A DNA stretch of 48,018 nucleotides from Actinomyces dentalis DSM 19115 (GTDB lineage: Bacteria; Actinomycetota; Actinomycetes; Actinomycetales; Actinomycetaceae). A program made the position numbers and the translations under genes. Shown here in pieces: positions 6,829 through 19,822 of this stretch. The stretch covers positions 1 to 48,018 of the forward strand of contig NZ_AUBL01000035.1 of assembly GCF_000429225.1 (NCBI RefSeq). Direction: 5' to 3'. The notes below the pieces were generated by a model. The model was not told the origin of the DNA and made no database searches. It saw only the letters and a program-made list of their open reading frames with translations. Each line of letters opens with the position of its first letter. Positions within the stretch are counted from its first letter, which is position 1.

Positions 6829-7662
6829 CTAGGACCACCCGGGCGGCGTGTCGTTCCCGGCCGGGACCGGGCGCGCCCCGCAGGTCGGGCAGGCGGGGTT
6901 CTTGCGCACCGGCAGCTCGGTGACGGCGCCGCCCCAGGCGTCCAGGACCAGGATCCGCCCGATGAGCGGGCGCGCCCCGCCGATCACGAGCTTGAGGGCC
7001 TCGGCGGCCTGCATGGAGCCGATGATCCCCGGCAGGACCCCGAGCACGCCGGCCTCGGCGCCGGAGGGCACCCGGCCGGGCGACGGCGGGTCGGGGTGCA
7101 GGCAGCGGTAGCAGGGGCCGCGGGCGGCGTCGAAGACGGCGACCTGCCCGTGCGTGCGCAGGACCGCACCGTGCACCATCGGGACGCCCAGCAGGGCGCA
7201 GGCGTCCCCCAGGAGGTAGCGGGCGGGGAAGTTGTCCGTCCCGTCGACCACCACGTCCCAGCCGCGCAGCACCTGCGGGGCGTTGGCGCCGGTCAGGCGC
7301 AGCGGGAGGGCGAGGACCTCGACATCGGGGTTGAGCGCGGTGAGGGTCTCGCGGGCCGAGTCGGTCTTGGCGCGCCCGACGTCGGCGGTGCGGTGGAGGA
7401 TCTGCCGCTGGAGGTTCGAGATCTCGACCGAATCCGGGTCGATGATCCCCAGCCGCCCCACGCCGGCGGCCGCCAGGTGGAGGGCGGCCGACGAGCCGAG
7501 CCCCCCGGCGCCGACGACGAGGACGCGGGCCGCCCGGATCCGCTCCTGACCGGCCGCGCCGACCTGCCGGACGAGGATGTTGCGGTGGTAGCGCCGTTGT
7601 TCGGCGGGGGTCAGTGGCCGACGGCGCTCGTCGGGGATCACGCCGGCGGCCGGCTCACTCAC
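6829..7662 (-). CDS. moeB: MoeB/ThiF-family sulfur-carrier adenylyltransferase
   Basis: The 277-residue enzyme would adenylate the C-terminal Gly-Gly of MoaD (or a ThiS-like carrier) so that sulfur can be loaded. VLVVGAGGLGSSAALHLAAAG is the nucleotide-binding loop, RQILH and DGTDNFPARYLL are E1-family signatures, and two CxxC pairs (CYRC, CPTC) form the structural zinc site. There is no rhodanese domain at the end, unlike many MoeBR proteins. GTG 7662 has a GGGAGG ribosome site and overlaps the end of the modBC gene by eight bases, implying translational coupling. Its place next to molybdate uptake genes, with moaD 6.5 kb away, supports molybdopterin over thiamine synthesis. Confidence 0.87.
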   Translation of the reverse strand: MSEPAAGVIPDERRRPLTPAEQRRYHRNILVRQVGAAGQERIRAARVLVVGAGGLGSSAALHLAAAGVGRLGIIDPDSVEISNLQRQILHRTADVGRAKTDSARETLTALNPDVEVLALPLRLTGANAPQVLRGWDVVVDGTDNFPARYLLGDACALLGVPMVHGAVLRTHGQVAVFDAARGPCYRCLHPDPPSPGRVPSGAEAGVLGVLPGIIGSMQAAEALKLVIGGARPLIGRILVLDAWGGAVTELPVRKNPACPTCGARPVPAGNDTPPGWS

Positions 7663-9868
7663 GGCCGCCCTCCCGGTTCGCGGCGGGACGGGCCAGGATC
7701 CGCACCTGGACGGCCTTGATGACGCAGCGCAGCTCCTGGCCCTCACGCACCCCCAGCTCCGCCAGGGCCGCCGTCGTGATCGCCGAGGTGAGGACCTGGC
7801 CCCCGCCGACGTCGAGGGCGACCGTGACGAGGGCGCCGGCGCGCTCCACGCCGGTGACGCGGCCGGTGAGCGCGTTGCGCGGGCTGCCCGACGGCGAGTC
7901 CCGGTCCACGGGGTAGAGGGCGACGGCGTCGGGCGGCACGAGGGCCGCCCCCGGGCCGCTCAGGGCGGCGGATGGGGCGGATGAGGCCTCGGCCGGACCG
8001 GGCGGCGGGGCGGGCGCGGCGGACGGGGCCGCGAGCGCCGCGTCGTCGTCCGCCTCCTGGGGCCGACCGGTGATGAGCCCGCCGGAGGCCAGTCGCAGTC
8101 GCGGGGCCCCGCGGTCGCCCTCCAGTGCGCCCAGGAGCACGGCGGTGCCGGTCAGGCGCGCGGCGAAGTCGGAGACGGGGGCGGCCAGCACGCGGGCGGC
8201 GGGCCCGGACTCGACGACGCGCCCGTCCTGGAGCACGGCGACGTCGTCGGCCAGGGCGGCCACGTCCAGGACGTCGTGCGTGACCAGCAGGACGGTCAGC
8301 CCCTCCTCGGCGGCGCGCCGCCCGACGACGGAGCGCATCTGGGCGCGGGCCGTCACGTCCAGGGCGGCCATGGGCTCGTCGAGGACGAGGGCGCGCGGGC
8401 GCGCGGCCAGGGCGCGGGCCAGGGCCACCCGGGCGGCCTGACCCCCCGACAGCTCGCCGCCGGGGCGCGGGGCCAGGTGCGAGGCGCCCACGGCCGCGAG
8501 CTCGGCGCGGGCGCGCCTGCGAGCCCGCGCGCGGGAGGCGCCCCGGCAGCGCGGCCCGAAGGCGACATTGTCCAGGACGCTCATGTGCGGGAAGATCCCC
8601 GGGGCCTGGGACAGCAGGGCGACGTCGCGCCGCCCGGCCGGCACGAAGGCGCCGGGGCCGTCCAGGACGCGCTCGCCCAGGCTCACCCGGCCGGCTTCGG
8701 CGTCGAGCAGTCCGGCGGCCACGGCGCAGGCGGTGGACTTGCCCGAGCCGTTGGGGCCGACGAGCGCCAGGGTGCGGCCGGCCTCGACGGTCAGATCGAC
8801 GACGACGTCGCGGGCGGTGGAGGCGAAGGCGATGCGCAGGGGGGCGGGCTCGTCGGGCCGCGGCGGGCCGGGCGTCCCGGTCCCGCCGGTCGCGTCGGGC
8901 GCTGCGGGGGCCGAGGCGGCCGAGGGGGCGGCCCCGATCGACTCGTCGTCGGGCGCGTCCGGGCGCCGTCGGGCCCTCAGGGCCGTGAGGGCGTCGCCCC
9001 ACTGGATGCTCGTGGCGCCCACGATGAGGAAGGACAGGGCGATGAGGACGACCGCCAGCGCCAGGGAGGTGGCCGTGTCGCTCTCCCGCTCCAGGTAGAT
9101 CGCCAGGGGCATGGTGCGGGTGACGCCCTCCTTGGAGCCGGCGAAGGCGATGGTCGCCCCGAACTCGCCCAGGCTGCGGCCCAGCGCCAGCGCCGTCCCG
9201 CGCGCGAGCGCCGGGCCGACGAGCGGCAGGGTGATGCGGGTCAGGACGCGCCACTCGCGGGCGCCCAGGGTGCGGGCGATGGTCTCCAGGCGGGTGTCGC
9301 GGCTGCGCAGCGCCGCCTCCAGGGTCACCACGAGGTAGGGCATGGACACGAAGACCTGGGCGATGACGACGGCGAGGGTGGAGAAGGAGACCCTGATGCC
9401 CGCGGCCTCCAGGGAGGGGCCGAGCACGCCCCGGCGGCCCAGGGTCGACAGCAGGGCGATGCCGGCGACGACGGGCGGCATGGTCATGGGCAGGACGGCC
9501 ATGACCCGGCCCACCCGCACGCCCGGCCAGTCTCGGGCGAGCAGCAGGGCCAGGGGCACACCCAGGCCCACCGAGATCGCCGTGGCGATCAGGCAGGTGC
9601 GCAGGGACAGGTCCAGGGCGGCGCGCGCGGAGGTGGAGGCGAGCAGCGTCGGCAGCTCGTTCCAGGCCACGCGCGTGCCCAGTCCGACGAAGGGCAGGAC
9701 GATGGCGCAGGCGCCCAGGACGGCGAGGAGGAGCACGGGCGGGGGCAGTGGGTTGCGGGCCGCGCGCGAGCGGCGTCGGGCGGGGCGGCGGGCGCTCGGC
9801 GGGGCGGCGGGACTCCCGGCGGGCTGCGGGGCGGACGGTCCGGCGGGCGGGGGGTCTTGGCGGGTCAT
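7655..9868 (-). CDS. modBC: Molybdate ABC transporter, fused permease-ATPase-TOBE protein
   Basis: One 737-residue protein carries both the membrane and motor parts of molybdate import. After a Pro/Arg-rich N-terminus (1-45), residues 46-290 form a ModB permease with the ATPase-contact loop ETIARTLGAREWRVL near 195-210. An Ala/Pro/Gly linker (300-345) leads to the ATPase: Walker A GPNGSGKST at 371-379, signature LSGGQ at 473, Walker B ALVLDEP at 493-499, and the H-loop TH. A second low-complexity linker (605-650) precedes a C-terminal TOBE/MOP molybdate-binding domain. ModB-ModC fusions occur in some actinobacteria. It follows modA after 66 bases that contain a perfect palindrome, and overlaps moeB. 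Confidence 0.93.
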   Translation of the reverse strand: MTRQDPPPAGPSAPQPAGSPAAPPSARRPARRRSRAARNPLPPPVLLLAVLGACAIVLPFVGLGTRVAWNELPTLLASTSARAALDLSLRTCLIATAISVGLGVPLALLLARDWPGVRVGRVMAVLPMTMPPVVAGIALLSTLGRRGVLGPSLEAAGIRVSFSTLAVVIAQVFVSMPYLVVTLEAALRSRDTRLETIARTLGAREWRVLTRITLPLVGPALARGTALALGRSLGEFGATIAFAGSKEGVTRTMPLAIYLERESDTATSLALAVVLIALSFLIVGATSIQWGDALTALRARRRPDAPDDESIGAAPSAASAPAAPDATGGTGTPGPPRPDEPAPLRIAFASTARDVVVDLTVEAGRTLALVGPNGSGKSTACAVAAGLLDAEAGRVSLGERVLDGPGAFVPAGRRDVALLSQAPGIFPHMSVLDNVAFGPRCRGASRARARRRARAELAAVGASHLAPRPGGELSGGQAARVALARALAARPRALVLDEPMAALDVTARAQMRSVVGRRAAEEGLTVLLVTHDVLDVAALADDVAVLQDGRVVESGPAARVLAAPVSDFAARLTGTAVLLGALEGDRGAPRLRLASGGLITGRPQEADDDAALAAPSAAPAPPPGPAEASSAPSAALSGPGAALVPPDAVALYPVDRDSPSGSPRNALTGRVTGVERAGALVTVALDVGGGQVLTSAITTAALAELGVREGQELRCVIKAVQVRILARPAANREGGRE

Positions 9869-9934: not shown

Positions 9935-10885
9935 TCAGTTGTTCTGGGTGGCCGGCTCGGTGCCCGTCTCAGCGGCCGTCTGCGCCGGGGCCGGAGTCCC
10001 GGTCTCCGCCGGCGTCCCAGTCGCGGCCGGAGTGGCCGCCGGGGTCGCCGTCGTCCCCGAGGCGGCGCCCGGCGCGCCGAAGCCGTAGGTGTCCTGGAGG
10101 ACCTTCTGACCCTCGGGGGACAGGATGTAGTCGATGAATGCCTGGGCGGCCTGAGAGTTGGCGGCCGACTTGGTCAGCGCGATCGGGTAGTGGTTGATCA
10201 CGGAGTTGGCCGGAAGGGCGATGGTCTCGACCTTGTCGCCGGCCTGGGCGGCGTCGGTGGTGTAGACGATGCCCGCCTGGGCCTCGCCGGACTCGACCTT
10301 GCCGCGCACGTCGGTGACCTTCTGCTCCTCGGAGACGGGGTTGAGGGTCACGCCGAGTTCGGCGGCGAGCTTCTGGGTGGCCTCGCCGCAGGGGACCTCG
10401 GGGGCGCAGATGACCAGGTCGGCCTTGTCCAGGGAGCCGTCGTTGATGCCGGTGACGCCCGCCGGGTTGCCGGCCGGCACGATGAGGGTCAGGACATTGG
10501 TGGCGAACTCGGTCTGCTCGCCGACCAGGCCCTTGCTCGCGGCGTCGGTCATGGTCGAGTTGTTGGCGGTGGCCAGGATGTCGGCGGACGCGCCCCCGTC
10601 CAGGGAGGCGACGAGCTCCTGGGATCCCTGGAAGTCGAAGGCGATGCGGACGCCCGGGTGGGCGTTCTGGAAGGACTCGGCCAGTGTCTTGAAGGCGTCC
10701 TTGAGGGAGGCGGCCGCGAAGACGGTGACCTCGCCGGTGATGTCCGCGCCGGCGGAGGCGCCCTGGGCGCCGGCCGCCGGGGCCGCGGAGCTCGCCGAGT
10801 CGGAGGCGGTGCCCCCGCACGCGACGAGCGAGACGGCGGAGACGAGTGAGAGTGCAGTGATGGCCAGGCGGCGCGAGAGGCGCAT
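9935..10885 (-). CDS. modA: Molybdate-binding lipoprotein
   Basis: The 316-residue protein starts with a lipoprotein signal (MRLSRRLAITALSLVSAVSL, lipobox LVAC with Cys23) and continues as a periplasmic-binding-type ModA: TVFAAASLKDAF, FQGSQELVASLDGGASADIL and IVYTTDA are family hallmarks of oxyanion recognition. It hands molybdate to the fused ModBC transporter encoded next. Unusually, the last 40 residues, after the normal end at LQDTYGFGAPG, are a Thr/Ala/Pro tail built from TPAATGTPAETG-like repeats. The start ATG 10885 has AAAGGA upstream. The 234 bases before it hold no gene; a weak TACGAT -10 candidate lies at 11010-11015 on the minus strand. Confidence 0.94.
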   Translation of the reverse strand: MRLSRRLAITALSLVSAVSLVACGGTASDSASSAAPAAGAQGASAGADITGEVTVFAAASLKDAFKTLAESFQNAHPGVRIAFDFQGSQELVASLDGGASADILATANNSTMTDAASKGLVGEQTEFATNVLTLIVPAGNPAGVTGINDGSLDKADLVICAPEVPCGEATQKLAAELGVTLNPVSEEQKVTDVRGKVESGEAQAGIVYTTDAAQAGDKVETIALPANSVINHYPIALTKSAANSQAAQAFIDYILSPEGQKVLQDTYGFGAPGAASGTTATPAATPAATGTPAETGTPAPAQTAAETGTEPATQNN

Positions 10886-12660: not shown

Positions 12661-12880
12661 GGTGGTGCGCATGGGACTCCTGGGGCGGTCCGGGGCGGGG
12701 GCTTGTCCAAATCTGTTGCAAAGGGGCTCCGGGCCGGGATCGGCCGCGAGAAGAAGCGCGGAATATCAACGATTCTCTTTCGGTGTTTCGGCGCGATCCG
12801 GGCCTTTGCAACAGATTTGGACAACCCGCGCCGCCGCGGGCTCGGACGGCGACCACGACGAGCGCTCCGACCGGCTGGCC
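12661..12880. repeat. Dispersed element copy A, with perfect 22-bp inverted termini
   Basis: Its core spans 12703-12824: two perfect 22-base inverted arms (12703-12724 and 12803-12824, containing CAAATCTGTTGCAAAG) enclose 78 bases. A second copy at 14771-14995 has identical arms, the same orientation and exactly the same 78-base interval, while the interior differs at many places. Similarity extends about 40-50 bases outside each arm. No reading frame is conserved. It may be a small non-autonomous mobile element (MITE) or a structured RNA. It occupies part of the gene-free stretch 12557-13226. Confidence 0.75.
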
Positions 12881-12907
12881 GGGCCCGCCCCGCCCCGGGC
12901 GCCGAAA

Positions 12908-13000
12908 CGTGCACTTCGCACTCGAAAGTGCAGTTCCAACCGTCGTTCTCGAGTGCAAAATGCACCACTCGAGAGCGAAATGCACATCTCGACGAGCAGA
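12908..13000. repeat. Nested palindromes built on CTCGAGTGCA
   Basis: Variants of CTCGAGTGCA occur several times in alternating orientation, including CTCGAGTGCA-aaa-TGCACcACTCGAG near 12950-12976, so the 90 bases can fold in several ways. The right half (12940-12998) is related to 39850-39893, which starts CCAACCGTCGTTCTCGAG and ends GCATCTCGACG but lacks about 21 internal bases. Between this nest and 13129 nothing else is recognisable. Confidence 0.6.
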
Positions 13001-13128
13001 GGACCGGCGACCGCGTCCCGGGCACCCGTGGCGCCGGCCCCGCCCCGGAGCATCTCCGGTGATCCGACGAGAAGGGGCGCAGCGATCCTTATCTCATCGG
13101 AAGCAGTGGCCCGGAGGTCGGGATCCGT

Positions 13129-13192
13129 GCGAGCCCGCCTCGCACAATGCGATCCCAGGTGACATCACCAAAACAACTCCCCCCGGGGCGGG
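13129..13192. repeat. Copy of a GGTGACATCACC / CCCCCGGGG intergenic repeat
   Basis: The bases GCGAGCCCGCCT, then AGGTGACATCACCA, then CTCCCCCCGGGG match, with scattered changes, the arms of the inverted repeat found at 21686-21853 and 24458-24626. This copy lies just past the 3' end of the narI remnant. GGTGA..TCACC and CCCCCGGGG are themselves short palindromes. Confidence 0.6.
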
Positions 13193-13226
13193 TGAGGGCC
13201 GCGTCTTCCCGGGAGGGCCGGGGCCC

Positions 13227-13649
13227 TCACGCCCCCTGGGAGGGCGTGAGGTCGTCGGCCCCCTGGTTGCCGGTGCCCTGCGTGCGCACCGGGTCCCAGC
13301 CGCGGCGCGGCGCGACGGTGGAGGTCGCCCCGCCGCGGGAGCGGTAGACGATGTAGGGGCGCGTCACATACCCCACGGGCGCGGAGACGGCGTGCACCAG
13401 GCGCGTGAAGGGCCAGATGGCGAACAGCAGCAGGCCCGCCACGATGTGCAGCTTGAAGGCCAGGGGCACGTCCGCCATGAGCTCGGCGCGCGGGCGGAGC
13501 ATGAAGATCGAGCGGAACCAGGGGCTGATCGTCTCGCGGTAGTCGTAGCCGCCGTGCAGGCCCCCCATGAGCTGGGTGGAGATCGTCGCCCAGGCGCCCA
13601 GGCAGATGGGCAGGAGAAGGAGGACGTACATGATCTTGTCGTTCCTCAC
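13227..13649 (-). pseudogene. narI: Nitrate reductase gamma subunit NarI, 3' half only
   Basis: The 140 residues match the C-terminal half of NarI, the haem b membrane subunit that passes electrons from quinol to NarGH. Recognisable features are the span KIMYVLLLLPICLGAWATI, the SPWFRSIFMLRP loop, FKLHIVAGLLLFAIWPFTRLVHA with its haem-ligand histidines, and the ending TRPYIVYRSR, followed by a 35-residue tail. The first half (about 120 residues with the other spans and haem ligands) is absent: similarity stops at RNDKIM, and the sequence becomes moaE read the other way. GTG 13649 can open the frame but is not the true start. narGHJ should lie upstream and is not in the window. Confidence 0.88.
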
Positions 13650-13974
13650 CTTCGACGGGCGGGTGCGCGATCACGACGCCGGACGCGGGGTGGAGGGCAT
13701 CTCCTACTCCGCCCATCCCAGTGCGGGCGAGGTCGTGGCGCGGATCGCCGCCGAGGTCGCCGCGCGCCCGGGGCTGCGGGCGCTGGCCGTCGTCCACCGC
13801 TACGGCGAGCTCGGCGTCGGGCAGACCGCCCTGGCCGTGGCCGTGAGCGCCGACCACCGCGGTCCCGCCTTCGAGGCGGTGCGCGACATCGTCGAGGAGA
13901 TCAAGCGGCGCCTGCCGGTGTGGAAGCGCCAGTTCTTCGACGACGGCAGCGCCGAGTGGTCGAATATCGCCTGA
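13648..13974 (+). pseudogene. moaE: Molybdopterin synthase large subunit MoaE, 5' end deleted
   Basis: From TFDGRVRDHDAG onward this is MoaE, the catalytic subunit that with MoaD converts precursor Z to molybdopterin. It keeps YSAHPSAGE, VVHRYGELGVGQ, AFEAVRDIVEEIKRRLPVWK (including the catalytic lysines) and ends at the family's usual place. The N-terminal 25-30 residues are missing; instead the frame runs into antisense narI sequence. The nearest in-frame ATG (13630) lies in that foreign part and has no ribosome site, so expression is doubtful. With moaE broken, molybdopterin synthesis would need a second copy elsewhere. Confidence 0.85.
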
Positions 13975-14132
13975 GCCGGCGGGCCTATGGCGGTGGGGCG
14001 ACAGCGGTCGGAGGCGATGGGGCGTAGCGGCCTATGGCGGCGGACCGACAGCGGCCTGTACCGGCGGGCGCGACGGCGGTCAACGGCGGTGATGTGGTGG
14101 CGGGCGTGCCGTGGCGCGACGGTGTCGGTGCG

Positions 14133-14417
14133 TCAGCCGCCGGCGAAGGGCGGCAGGACGTCGACCCGGTCGCCGTCGGCCAGGAGCGCCAGCGAGTCCG
14201 CGGGGGCGGACACGGCGTTGACCAGGAAGCTGGAGACGCCGATGACCCGCGCCATCTCCAGGGCCCGGCCGGCCAGCAGCTCGCGCAGGCCCGCCAGCGT
14301 CGCGCCGTCCGGCAGTTCCAGGCGCTCCTCGGTGCGGCCGGCGGCCTCGGCGGCGGCGGCGAAGTAGTGCAGCTCGACGGCGATGACCGCCGCATCGGGG
14401 GGTGCGCTCGTGCTCAT
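14133..14417 (-). CDS. moaD: Molybdopterin synthase small subunit MoaD
   Basis: The 94-residue ubiquitin-like protein carries sulfur as a C-terminal thiocarboxylate. It ends in PPFAGG, the required Gly-Gly, preceded by LLADGDRVDVLPP, the standard MoaD ending. HYFAAAAEAAGRTEERLELPDGATLAGLRELL fits the N-terminal beta-grasp part. Its partners are MoaE (only a 5'-truncated copy here, 158 bases away on the other strand) and MoeB (6829-7662). Start ATG 14417 is the only sensible one; the ribosome site is weak. The 158 bases to the moaE stop contain only a repeated GGCCTATGGCGG motif. Confidence 0.9.
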   Translation of the reverse strand: MSTSAPPDAAVIAVELHYFAAAAEAAGRTEERLELPDGATLAGLRELLAGRALEMARVIGVSSFLVNAVSAPADSLALLADGDRVDVLPPFAGG

Positions 14418-14526
14418 GCCCCCATGCTCTCACCGAGACCGGCGGAAAAGTCACGCGAGACCGGCGGAAACCACGCATCCCGTGGATGACCCGGCGCGGT
14501 CGGCTGGCCCCCGTCCCGCTGCTCCT

Positions 14527-14601
14527 TCGCGAGCGCGCAGGTTTCCAGTCGAACGCGCACCTCCCAGCCGCGCGTTCGACTGGAAACCTGCGCGCTCGCG
14601 A
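14527..14601. repeat. Perfect 32-bp stem, 11-base loop
   Basis: Bases 14527-14558 and 14570-14601 are perfect inverted copies (GCGAGCGCGCAGGTTTCCAG inside the arm) around an 11-base loop, one of the strongest hairpins in the window. It stands alone between moaD and moaA with no T-run on either side. Part of the gene-free stretch 14418-15115; apart from this hairpin and element copy B I see nothing there. Confidence 0.8.
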
Positions 14602-14770
14602 GAATCGGCCAGGAGGGCCGAGTCCCGGGCGCCCCATGCGTCTCATCAAACTCGTGCGCGGCCCCTGCGGGCCCGTCCGAAGCGGGAATATGGCGCCCCG
14701 GGGGGATCGCTCCGCCCCGCAGGGTCTCCCGCCGCCCTCATCCGGGCTCGCCGCCGCAGGGGCGCCCGCA

Positions 14771-14995
14771 CGGTGGTGCGCATGGGACTCCTGAGACGAT
14801 CCGGGGCGGGCAGTTGTCCAAATCTGTTGCAAAGGCGCCCCGGACCGGGATCGGCCCCGAGAAGAAGCGCGGAATACCAACGATCCTCCTCCGGCACCGC
14901 GACTCGATCCGGGCCTTTGCAACAGATTTGGACAACCCGCGCCGCCGAGGGCCGGACGGCGGCCGCAGCGGACGCCCCGATCGGCCGGACGGACC
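14771..14995. repeat. Dispersed element copy B, with perfect 22-bp inverted termini
   Basis: Second copy of the element described at 12661-12880. Arms at 14814-14835 and 14914-14935 are identical to those of copy A and again enclose 78 bases. The interior keeps GAGAAGAAGCGCGGAATA but diverges towards its centre. The copies are direct repeats 2.1 kb apart and bracket the narI/moaE scar and moaD. Confidence 0.75.
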
Positions 14996-15115
14996 CTGTG
15001 AGAGCGTGCGCCGGGGGCGCGCCCCCGGCGCACGCGCCCGACCTTCACCGGCGGGAAGAGCCAGATGTGTCGTTTCCGCCGATTCCGGCGAAGAGGCGGG
15101 ACGGGCGCCGGCCGT

Positions 15116-16339
15116 TCAGCCGCCGATGGCGGACATGGTGCGGCCGGGGCGCACGAAGCCGCCGGACGCCGGGCCCGGCGCGTTCGCGCCGTGGGCGAGC
15201 GGCTTGTGCCAGGTCGCCCCGGCCCATACGCGGATGAGCTCGTCGTCGCTCGCGCCCGCGCGCATGGGGCCGCGCAGGTCCGTCTCCCGCGCCGAGAACA
15301 GGCAGGTCATGAGACGTCCGTCCGCGGTGATGCGCGTGCGGTCGCAGTCGGCGCAGAAGGGCGCCGTCACCGAGGCGATAATGCCGAGGCTGCCGGCGGG
15401 GTACTCCCCGACGCCGTCCGCCGCCCCGGCGGCCACGTGCCACAGGCTCGCCGGGCGCCGGTCCGACCGCCCCACCTCCCGCAGGACGAAGCCCGCCTCG
15501 CCCAGCTCCGCGAGGATCCGGGCCGCGCCGACCACGTCTTCGGCCCGCCAGGACTCGCGCGGCCCCAGCGGCATGTGCTCGATGAAGCGCAGCTGCCAGC
15601 CGCGGCGCAGGCACTCGGCCAGCAGGCGCGGGGCGCGCCGCCCCATTGAGCCGGGCATCGCCACGGCGTTGATCTTGATGGGCCCCAGGCCCGCCTCCTG
15701 CGCGCCGACGACCCCGCGCAGGACGCCGTCGAGGCGGTCGCGCCGCGTGATCGCCGCGTACTCGCCCGCGTCCAGGGTGTCGATCGAGACGTTGACCCGA
15801 TCCAGTCCGGCCGTGCGCAGTCCGGCCGCGCGCCTGTCCAGGCCCAGCCCGTTCGTCGTCAGCCCGATGTCCGGTTTGGCGCCCGTCCGCCGGGTGCGCA
15901 GCGAGGCCACCGCCGCCACGATCTCCTCCAGGTCCCGGCGCATGAGCGGTTCGCCGCCGGTCAGGCGGATCCGCTCCACGCCCAGGCGCTCGACGGCGAT
16001 CCGGGCCAGGCGCGCGATCTCCCGCGCGTCCAGCAGCGACGCCGTTGGCAGCCACCCCGGGCCCGACTCCGGCATGCAGTAGGTGCAGCGCAGGTTGCAG
16101 CGGTCCGTCACCGACAGCCGCAGGTCCCGCACGCCGCGGCCGAAGCGGTCCGTCAACTCGGCCGGGACCGCGCCGTCCGCCGTGGTCGGCACCTCCTCGA
16201 TGCCGTCGGCCGACCAGGACCATTCCGACCCGGGGCGTCCCGGGGCCGGGAGGGCCGGGCGACCCGTCGGACGCGGCGCCGGCGCCGCCAAAGGTACGAC
16301 GGCGCCGGCGCCGATCGCGTCACCGGGCGAGGGGGTCAT
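15116..16339 (-). CDS. moaA: GTP 3',8-cyclase MoaA
   Basis: A 407-residue radical SAM enzyme that begins molybdopterin synthesis from GTP. The radical SAM cluster is C81-x3-C85-x2-C88 (RCNLRCTYC). RIRLTGGEPLMRRDL is the SAM-binding segment. The second iron-sulfur cluster is provided by FCADCDRTRITADGRLMTC. The protein ends in Gly-Gly (TMSAIGG), needed for activity in known MoaA. It is longer than usual by about 65 N-terminal residues of Pro/Ala-rich sequence; a later start is possible but no better ribosome site is evident. It follows the DUF2249 gene after 18 bases, so the two form an operon. Confidence 0.93.
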   Translation of the reverse strand: MTPSPGDAIGAGAVVPLAAPAPRPTGRPALPAPGRPGSEWSWSADGIEEVPTTADGAVPAELTDRFGRGVRDLRLSVTDRCNLRCTYCMPESGPGWLPTASLLDAREIARLARIAVERLGVERIRLTGGEPLMRRDLEEIVAAVASLRTRRTGAKPDIGLTTNGLGLDRRAAGLRTAGLDRVNVSIDTLDAGEYAAITRRDRLDGVLRGVVGAQEAGLGPIKINAVAMPGSMGRRAPRLLAECLRRGWQLRFIEHMPLGPRESWRAEDVVGAARILAELGEAGFVLREVGRSDRRPASLWHVAAGAADGVGEYPAGSLGIIASVTAPFCADCDRTRITADGRLMTCLFSARETDLRGPMRAGASDDELIRVWAGATWHKPLAHGANAPGPASGGFVRPGRTMSAIGG

Positions 16340-16743: not shown

Positions 16744-18128
16744 AGGCGGCGGCTCACGGCGCGGCGGCTCACAGTGCGGCGGGCCGCGGCGCGGGGAGCC
16801 GCGGCGCGGCGGGCCCGTCCCCGCGCGGGAGGCCCGCGTCCGGCGGCGCCCGGCCCCCATCCCGGCGCCCCTCCCGCCGCACCACCCAGGTACGGCGCAA
16901 CGCCGTCGTCCTGGCCTGGATCGCGACGGCCGGGATCCTCGCCGTCCTCGTCATCGGCGGACCGCTCGCCTCCTGGGGCGCGTGGCTGCCGCTCCACGCC
17001 CTCCTGCTCGGCGGGATCGGCTCGGCCATCACCATCTGGTCCGCCCACTTCGCCGACACCCTCCTCCACCGCCCCGCCCTGGGCGGCGCCGTCCTCCTTG
17101 ACGTCCGCCTGTACGCCCACGGCGTCGGCACCGCCCTCGTCCTGGTCGGGATCACCACCGCCCGCAGCCCGGTGGCGCTGACCGGCGTCGTCATAGTCGC
17201 GACGACCGCCCTGGCCGGCGTCCTGGCCATCGGCGTGCAGTACCGACGGGCCGTCGCCCCGCGCCTGGCCCCGCTGGCCATCCACTACATCGTCGCCCTG
17301 TCCCTCCTGGCGCTGGGAGCCGCCTTCGGCTACCTCACCTCCTGGACGGATGCGCACGGGCGCGCCGACCTGTCCGACGTCCTCTACATCGCCCACACCA
17401 CGACCATGCTCCTGGGCTTCGTCGGCATCACCGTGCTGGGCACCCTCACCGTCCTGTGGCCCACCATGCTGCGCACCAAGATGGAGCCCGAAGCGCCCCG
17501 CCGTGCCATCCGGGGGCTGCCGCTGCTCGTGGCCGGCACCGCCCTGACCGCCGCCGGCGGGCTGTGGCGGCCGCTCGCCGCCGTCGGGGCCGCGACCTAT
17601 CTGCTGGGCGCCTGCGGCGTCGTCATCCCGGCCCTCAAGATCGCCCGCCGCGTCCCGCCCACGTCCTTCGCCACCGCCGGCGCCGCCGCGGCGGTGGGAT
17701 GGTTCCTGGGCTGCGTCGTCCTCGTCGGGGCGGGGATCCTCATGGCCGACGACGTCGCCGGGGCCCGCCGGGTCATCCACACCGTCCGGGTGGCGCTCGG
17801 AGCCGGCTTCGCCCTCCAGATCCTGGCCGCGGCCCTGTCCTATCTCACCCCCGTCATGCTCGGCGGGGGACCGGCGACGACCCGGGTCACCAACGCGATC
17901 ATGGACCGGGCCGCCGACTACCGGGTCGTGGCCGCCAACTCCTGCCTGCTGCCCGCGGTCCTGCCGGTCCTGCCCTGGACCGTCCGGCTCACCTGCGCCC
18001 TGGCCGCCGGGGTCGTCGCGGGCTACGTCCCGATCGGGATGGGGCTGAGCTGGGCCGAGGTCAGACGCCGCGACCGCGCCAGGAGAAGCCGCGGCGAATC
18101 GAAGCAATCCGAAGGACGGCCCCGATGA
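16734..18128 (+). CDS. Polytopic membrane protein paired with the copper nitrite reductase
   Basis: 464 residues: a basic, low-complexity cytoplasmic N-terminus (1-55) then about eleven or twelve hydrophobic spans. Several spans contain histidines (LPLHALLLGG, SAHFADTLLH, YAHGVGTALVL, AIHYIVAL, IAHTTTMLLGF, RVIHTVRVAL), a pattern seen in haem-binding NnrS-like or oxidase-like membrane proteins. It overlaps the nitrite-reductase gene by ATGA, so the two are translated together. In some actinobacteria, as I recall, a similar polytopic domain is fused to the copper reductase in one protein; if so, this would be the split form. Likely role: electron delivery or NO handling, by inference. Confidence 0.75.
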   Translation: MNNKAAAHGAAAHSAAGRGAGSRGAAGPSPRGRPASGGARPPSRRPSRRTTQVRRNAVVLAWIATAGILAVLVIGGPLASWGAWLPLHALLLGGIGSAITIWSAHFADTLLHRPALGGAVLLDVRLYAHGVGTALVLVGITTARSPVALTGVVIVATTALAGVLAIGVQYRRAVAPRLAPLAIHYIVALSLLALGAAFGYLTSWTDAHGRADLSDVLYIAHTTTMLLGFVGITVLGTLTVLWPTMLRTKMEPEAPRRAIRGLPLLVAGTALTAAGGLWRPLAAVGAATYLLGACGVVIPALKIARRVPPTSFATAGAAAAVGWFLGCVVLVGAGILMADDVAGARRVIHTVRVALGAGFALQILAAALSYLTPVMLGGGPATTRVTNAIMDRAADYRVVAANSCLLPAVLPVLPWTVRLTCALAAGVVAGYVPIGMGLSWAEVRRRDRARRSRGESKQSEGRPR

Positions 18129-19822
18129 GTGATGCCCCCGAGCCCGACGCCGCTGCCGACGCCGTCCCCGAGGCGGGTCCCGGCGGCGCCCCCGGCGGTT
18201 CCCGCCCCGAGCCGGACCCGGCGACCCGCGCGGCGATCACCGCCGGGCGGGCCCCCGCCATCGGCCGCGGCGCCAGGGCCGCGCGCTCGACCGACGCCGC
18301 GAGCGCCGGCGCGGCGTCGGGCTCCGGCGGCTCCTCCGCAGGCGCGGGCTCCGGCGGCTCCGGCTCCGTCTCCGCGGGCAACGCGGCCTCCCCGGGCGCA
18401 CGGGGCGCGCGGGACGCGACGCGGGCCGGATTCCCCGCCGACAGGCGCGGGGTGCTGCTCGGCCTGGCCACCGCCGGCGTCGCCGTCGTCACCGGAGTCG
18501 CCCTGAACGGCCGGGGCGCCTCCTCGGGCTCGGGCGCCGACGCCGTCGGCGCCACCGGCAACACCGTCGAGGTCACCGTCACCGTCTCGGGTATGCGCTT
18601 CGTGCCCGACGCCGTCGACGTCGCCCCCGGCGACCGCCTCGTCATCACCCTCGACAACACCTCCGACCAGGTGCACGACCTCGTCCTGGCCAATGGCGCC
18701 GAGTCCGGCCGCGTCGCCGCCGGGCGGAGCGCCACCGTCGACGTCGGCGTCGTCACCGGCCCCGTGGAGGGCTGGTGCTCCATCGCCGGGCACCGCGCCC
18801 AGGGCATGGTCTTCCACGTCACCGCCGCCGGGACGGCCGGGGCCGCCGGGCACGGCGCCCACGGGGGCGGCGCCACCGGTTCGGGCGGCTCCGGCGGGTC
18901 AGGCGGTTCGGCGGGCTCCGGCGGTGGCGCCGTCCCCGACTACGCCGTCGTCCTGCCCGCCGACGTGAGGGGCTTCGATCCAGCGCTGGCGCCCGCCGGC
19001 GCCTCCGTCGCCGTCCACGAGCACACCTTCACCGTCACCGAGCAGGTGATGCACGTGGGGGCCGGCGTCACCCAGATGCGCATGACCTTCAACGCCGGGG
19101 TGCCGGGCCCGATCCTGCGCGGCCGGGTCGGCGACGTCTTCCGCATCACCCTGGTCAACAAGGGCAGCATGAGCCACTCCATCGACTTCCACGCCGGGGT
19201 CCTCCCGCCCGACGACGTCATGCGCTCCATCAACCCCGGCGAGTCGCTCGTCTACGAGTTCACGGCCCAGCGCGCCGGGATCTGGCTCTACCACTGCTCC
19301 ACCGCGCCCATGAGCGTCCACCTGGCCTCGGGCATGCACGGGGCCGTCATCATCGACCCGCCGAACCTGACCGCGGTGGACCGCGAGTACGTCGTCGTGC
19401 AGTCGGAGATCTACCTCGGTCCCGAGGGCGGGGAGACCGACGCCGTCAAGGTCGCCGCGAAGACCCCGGACCTGTTCGCCTTCAACGGCATCGCCTTCCA
19501 GTACCGGGACCGGCCCTTCACGGCCCGGCCCGGGGAGCGGGTGCGGTTCTGGGTGCTGGACGCCGGGCCCTCGGAGCCCATGAGCTTCCACGCCGTCGGG
19601 CTGCAGTTCGACCAGGTCTTCTTCGAGGGGGCGTGGACGCTCGGCGGTCCCGATCGGATCGGGGCGGCCTGGTCCGGGGGGAGCCAGGCGCTGGGCCTTC
19701 ATCCCGCGCAGGGCGGTTTCGTCGAGTGCGTTCCGCCCGCCGCCGGCACCTACACGGTGGTCTCCCACTCCTTCGCGGATATGGAGAAGGGCGCGATGGG
19801 CCACCTGGTGGTCGCAGACTGA
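18125..19822 (+). CDS. nirK: Copper-containing nitrite reductase, three cupredoxin domains
   Basis: The 565-residue enzyme reduces nitrite to nitric oxide outside the membrane. A long low-complexity N-region (1-104) precedes a Tat-like signal (DRRGVLLGLATAGVAVV, Arg107-Arg108). An extra N-terminal cupredoxin domain (about 145-235) has a complete type 1 copper set: H184, C218, H223, M228. After a Gly/Ser linker come the two NirK domains. Type 1 ligands H351, C391, H399, M404, type 2 ligands H356, H390, H548, and catalytic D354 and H489 are all present. The extra domain may serve as a built-in electron donor. ATG 18125 overlaps the upstream stop. nirK is the best-fit symbol (AniA-like). Confidence 0.93.
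   Translation: MSDAPEPDAAADAVPEAGPGGAPGGSRPEPDPATRAAITAGRAPAIGRGARAARSTDAASAGAASGSGGSSAGAGSGGSGSVSAGNAASPGARGARDATRAGFPADRRGVLLGLATAGVAVVTGVALNGRGASSGSGADAVGATGNTVEVTVTVSGMRFVPDAVDVAPGDRLVITLDNTSDQVHDLVLANGAESGRVAAGRSATVDVGVVTGPVEGWCSIAGHRAQGMVFHVTAAGTAGAAGHGAHGGGATGSGGSGGSGGSAGSGGGAVPDYAVVLPADVRGFDPALAPAGASVAVHEHTFTVTEQVMHVGAGVTQMRMTFNAGVPGPILRGRVGDVFRITLVNKGSMSHSIDFHAGVLPPDDVMRSINPGESLVYEFTAQRAGIWLYHCSTAPMSVHLASGMHGAVIIDPPNLTAVDREYVVVQSEIYLGPEGGETDAVKVAAKTPDLFAFNGIAFQYRDRPFTARPGERVRFWVLDAGPSEPMSFHAVGLQFDQVFFEGAWTLGGPDRIGAAWSGGSQALGLHPAQGGFVECVPPAAGTYTVVSHSFADMEKGAMGHLVVAD

Follow-up and report, generated by a model that had tools for sequence, protein, structure and literature searches.

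Why should two incomplete genes, one for a nitrate reductase subunit and the other for a molybdenum cofactor enzyme, lie head to head with no space between them in the genome of Actinomyces dentalis DSM 19115? The stretch of DNA analysed here (the window, 48,018 nucleotides) makes up the whole of contig C31; the draft genome comprises 3.53 Mb in 90 contigs and is rated 100% complete. On its minus strand, positions 13227..13649 encode the C-terminal 139 residues, from RNDK onwards, of NarI, the nitrate reductase gamma subunit. On the plus strand, positions 13648..13974 encode the C-terminal 108 residues, from TFDG onwards, of MoaE, the large subunit of molybdopterin synthase. The nearest relative that possesses the corresponding block of genes is genome G015, with which the narI tail is 97.8% identical at the protein level; against its proteins of 264 and 145 residues, the narI remnant is without 125 and the moaE remnant without 37 N-terminal residues. 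The closest named matches to the narI remnant are from Actinomyces species. This remnant is not a full-length membrane haem b NarI: two profile searches matched only positions 110-217 or 121-217 of the 217 in PF02665, and the TIGR00351 score (86.6) is below the cut-off of 105.55. Similarly, the moaE remnant matches only positions 23-114 of 114 in PF02391 and is not a full-length MoaE domain, though at 90.3 bits it exceeds the Pfam cut-off of 23.4. The first-pass annotation, which had seen two 5'-truncated genes of opposite strand meeting at one point, was thus correct, and the junction can be placed at 13646-13647.

Comparison with G015 indicates how this arrangement could have arisen. Window positions 13224-13647 align to one end of the G015 block (97.4% over 424 bases) and positions 13643-14600 to its other end. 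At single-base resolution, the match on the narI side ends with 13647 and that on the moaE side begins with 13646, with no inserted bases; the two sides have 2 bp (TC) in common, and 13,245 bp are missing with respect to G015, these last two figures being estimates since G015 merely stands in for the ancestor. At 73% GC, roughly 22% of random joins would share at least two bases, and therefore no homology would be needed for this one. The two-sided match, the two shared bases and the lack of any insertion are what a simple deletion, with non-homologous ends joined, would leave. Recombination between direct repeats does not account for the junction, as G015 shows no similarity between its two breakpoint regions beyond the 2 bases. 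Recombination between flanking repeats of roughly 200 bases was also considered and rejected, the breakpoints being inside coding sequence and away from repeats.

The gene order from which such a deletion would have started is well conserved in the genus. Among 59 genomes searched, narI is matched in 30 of the 36 other genus members, each time from profile position 2 or 3 to 217, and moaE in 43 of 49 genus genomes including this one, the 42 others starting at profile position 1-9. In 28 of the 30 narI-bearing members moaE is on the same contig (in G004 it lies on a different one, and G034 gives no match to it), and each of these 28 shows the two genes diverging, with 11.1-17.2 kb between them (median 11.6 kb). 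The genes on each side of our junction, and their divergent orientation, are therefore those of the usual narGHJI and linked cofactor loci; what is missing here is the stretch from narI codon 126 to moaE codon 38. It is very probable, judging by these alignments, that one deletion took the 5' ends of both genes and everything between them, as the first-pass annotation had proposed; the G015 alignment and the 28 relatives bear this out. The ancestor would have had the usual Actinomyces layout, with narGHJI on one strand and a divergent moaE 11-17 kb away, the interval containing, if it resembled that of the nearest relative, narK, moaB/mog, a mobA-like gene, moaC and moeA as well. One illegitimate (non-homologous) deletion with 2 bp shared at its ends would then have removed the block and joined the two coding sequences head to head.

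In G015 the block (locus L145, 13,245 bases, genes named from NCBIfam matches) holds narG, narH, narJ, the start of narI, narK, moaB/mog, the mobA-like gene, moaC, moeA and the start of moaE. Some of these names are approximate: the MoeA/Glp-type protein is under the cut-offs of those NCBIfam models, the MobA match is weak (32.6 against a cut-off of 151.85 bits) and the NarK-type transporter scores 225.6 against 311.7 bits. The first-pass expectation that the lost block probably held narGHJ agrees with this gene content and with the absence of narG from the genome under study. Searches of the whole assembly gave no match to narG and none to moaC, and in the profile searches the narI and moaE remnants were the sole matches to their families, so that an intact moaE or narG, for which a search had been advised, is not found elsewhere in this genome. 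The only match to the molybdopterin oxidoreductase family (PF00384) is on contig C37 beside NuoH, and is the NuoG of complex I (1103.4 bits to the NCBIfam NuoG model, cut-off 802). NuoG is not known to carry molybdenum. Of the genes in the block, these profile searches of the genome covered narG, narI, moaC and moaE. At the DNA level, the whole G015 block gave 63 matches (40 of 1178 candidates scored), mainly interspersed repeats: the best 40 are confined to two repeat stretches of the query, 27 to one and 13 to the other; the remaining 23 are short and mostly in or near the same two stretches. The nar part of the block (L145 4900-13245, 8346 of the 13245 bases) gave 33 short, weak matches (40 of 1017 candidates scored), of which the best has 105 bases at 73% identity (E 5.1e-8). 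As DNA, moeA, moaC and the mobA-like gene are covered by the whole-block query only.

These searches also bear on a trivial explanation, namely that the isolate still has the nar block and that an assembly misjoin has hidden it. The draft state of the genome (90 contigs) and its dozens of interspersed repeats would make such an error conceivable, but the junction is within coding sequence, with only 2 shared bases and not at a repeat. Moreover, narG, moaC and the starts of both narI and moaE are without a match in an assembly rated 100% complete. Since neither narG nor moaC is found genome-wide and the sole PF00384 match is NuoG, a misjoin is unlikely; in our estimate, very unlikely indeed. 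The other explanation to be weighed is an old rearrangement, fixed throughout the lineage, in which the short frames have been kept for some function. Both remnants are indeed open and conserved, and a shortened MoaE can be imagined. The moaE open frame (13567-13974, plus strand) extends back into antisense narI, with an ATG at 13567 and a second at 13630, and the motif AAGGAGG sits six bases before the latter. This second start, however, looks accidental because G015 reads ATA at the corresponding position. Nor, with moaC and narG matchless, does either short protein have its pathway. Furthermore, the junction is not found in the other 48 genus genomes. When the 140 bases at 13577-13716 (junction at query base 71) were compared with each genome, at most 17 candidates being scored per genome, only the strain's own genome matched in one piece, and the other 48 genus genomes gave no match longer than 85 of the 140 bases; all 28 same-contig pairs have the two genes well separated. 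A comparison of relatives had been proposed as a check. Three narI-side matches in other genus genomes extend 14 bases beyond the junction, and a weak match of 60 bases in G036 (E 6e-4), located somewhere unrelated, straddles it. Finally, there are proteins in the ENA that are identical to the remnants and continue normally past the breakpoint. On balance, an old functional rearrangement is extremely unlikely.

These ENA proteins also have a bearing on the age of the deletion that we favour. The 139-residue narI tail recurs letter for letter in P0121, where 24 ordinary NarI residues precede it; at 163 residues (264 in G015) this protein may not be whole, though its sequence past the breakpoint is ordinary. 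The 108-residue moaE tail is likewise found letter for letter in P0001, a protein of 158 residues in which 50 residues precede it. Both come from small ENA contigs, of 1358 and 1381 bases respectively. As these proteins are identical to the remnants yet continue past the breakpoint, close kin without the junction must exist. With respect to G015, dN/dS is 0.20 for narI and 0.29 for moaE, neither having any stop, and is higher for moaD (0.39) and moaA (0.37); the other values are 0.68 for modA, 0.56 for modBC, 0.31 for a 464-residue frame and 0.48 for an HTH gene. Such ratios make a weak clock, because most of the divergence between the remnants and G015 must predate the deletion. Because the ENA proteins with identical tails run on into ordinary sequence, and because the remnants show no decay, the loss nevertheless looks recent. 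Two further proteins from short contigs, P0124 and P0219, are NarI-like with first parts that are not in the normal place. They could reflect additional deletions affecting narI in related strains, or else chimeric assembly; for the first part of P0124, neither the window nor the G015 stretch offers a convincing match. A search of plasmid records with positions 12700-15000 gave 14 records with identities of 60-80%; all fell short of 80% query coverage, and narI, moaE or no annotated gene lay under the match.

What has the strain retained? At lower positions than the junction in the window are a moeB/ThiF-family adenylyltransferase (6829..7746), a modB-modC fusion comprising the permease and ATPase of a molybdate ABC transporter (7655..9868) and the molybdate-binding protein gene modA (9935..10885), all on the minus strand. 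On the other side, also on the minus strand, are a moaD-like sulfur carrier of the ThiS family (14133..14417), an open frame with no stops that exceeds the Pfam cut-off and scores 39.5 to TIGR01682 (cut-off 66.15), and moaA (GTP 3',8-cyclase, 15116..16339), a full-length match. The first-pass list of survivors (molybdate uptake, moaA, moaD and a moeB-type gene) is therefore borne out. It also included nirK, for which the case is less simple: the open frame at 17456..19822 on the plus strand, inside which the true start probably lies, has a NirK-like copper nitrite reductase domain pair, but its score to TIGR02376 is 132.6 bits against the NCBIfam cut-off of 296.3. If this enzyme is what it appears to be, it may represent a leftover nitrite-only pathway.

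As to function, the gene content suggests that the strain is unable to respire nitrate and, moreover, unable to make molybdenum cofactor. The first-pass annotation had predicted a broken molybdopterin synthase. The truncated moaE supports this, but the prediction was understated: as moaC is matched nowhere in the genome, cofactor synthesis would be lost beyond the synthase step too, several steps having gone. The remaining mod, moeB, moaD and moaA genes would then be leftovers. The event is a real but ordinary gene loss with an expected metabolic consequence, one that is larger than was first supposed because several cofactor genes went with the nar block. Work on nitrate, nitrite and nitric oxide in the mouth counts Actinomyces among the nitrate reducers (PMC3966736). 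Judged by title and the beginning of the abstract, none of the papers found on Actinomyces and nitrate describes this locus, and a search combining terms for the cofactor, the reductase, the two genes and their loss by deletion found no paper. With modABC, moaA, moaD, moeB and a NirK-like enzyme in a partial annotation, this strain could be mis-scored as a nitrate user. It is also a natural knock-out in which to watch whether orphaned cofactor genes decay.

A broader view of the genus shows that the absence of this pathway is not unique. Of the 49 genus genomes, 42 contain narG: in 39 it scores above the cut-off, and in G018, G064 and G067 it is in pieces. In G033, which possesses moaE and moaA, the narG search gave only weak matches that belong to another enzyme. 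Both narG and moaE are missing from five genomes (G002, G012, G013, G014 and G020), the second of which is only 82% complete, and among the five moaA is matched just once and weakly, in G014 (E 1.1e-5). Like the present strain, these five lack both a nitrate reductase and a complete cofactor pathway; unlike it, they are without any narI or moaE match, whereas here fragments persist together with moaA, moaD and modABC. As the nar genes, the transporter and most of the cofactor genes are compactly arranged, one deletion could abolish the respiration and its cofactor together. We would suggest, tentatively and with some doubt, that the genus has lost this island repeatedly as a unit and that the present strain represents a fresh intermediate, caught before the leftovers decay. 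G034, a draft of about 50 contigs, tells against a strict all-or-none rule for the island, since narG and narI are found in it whereas moaE and moaA are not matched; it apparently either has a nitrate reductase unaccompanied by the cofactor pathway or is incomplete at this point. In G015 itself, the narG frame (G015:C1, about 2402214-2406059) has an in-frame stop at codon 199 as read, and nitrate reductase may be failing in that genome by a separate route.

Some repeated sequences in the vicinity deserve mention. Between moaA and moaD, 5' of moaD, positions 14527-14601 form a perfect inverted repeat with arms of 32 bases and an 11-base spacer; an Rfam scan of the window gave no match. Two 122-base elements, at 12703-12824 and 14814-14935, are each bounded by perfect 21-base inverted repeats (TTGTCCAAATCTGTTGCAAAG). 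They flank the narI-moaE-moaD stretch, one on each side, and are the interspersed elements nearest to the junction. Related repeats recur genome-wide: of the best 40 DNA matches to the G015 block mentioned above, 27 fall on the G015 copy and 13 on a second repeat. The 122-base elements look like small non-autonomous mobile elements.
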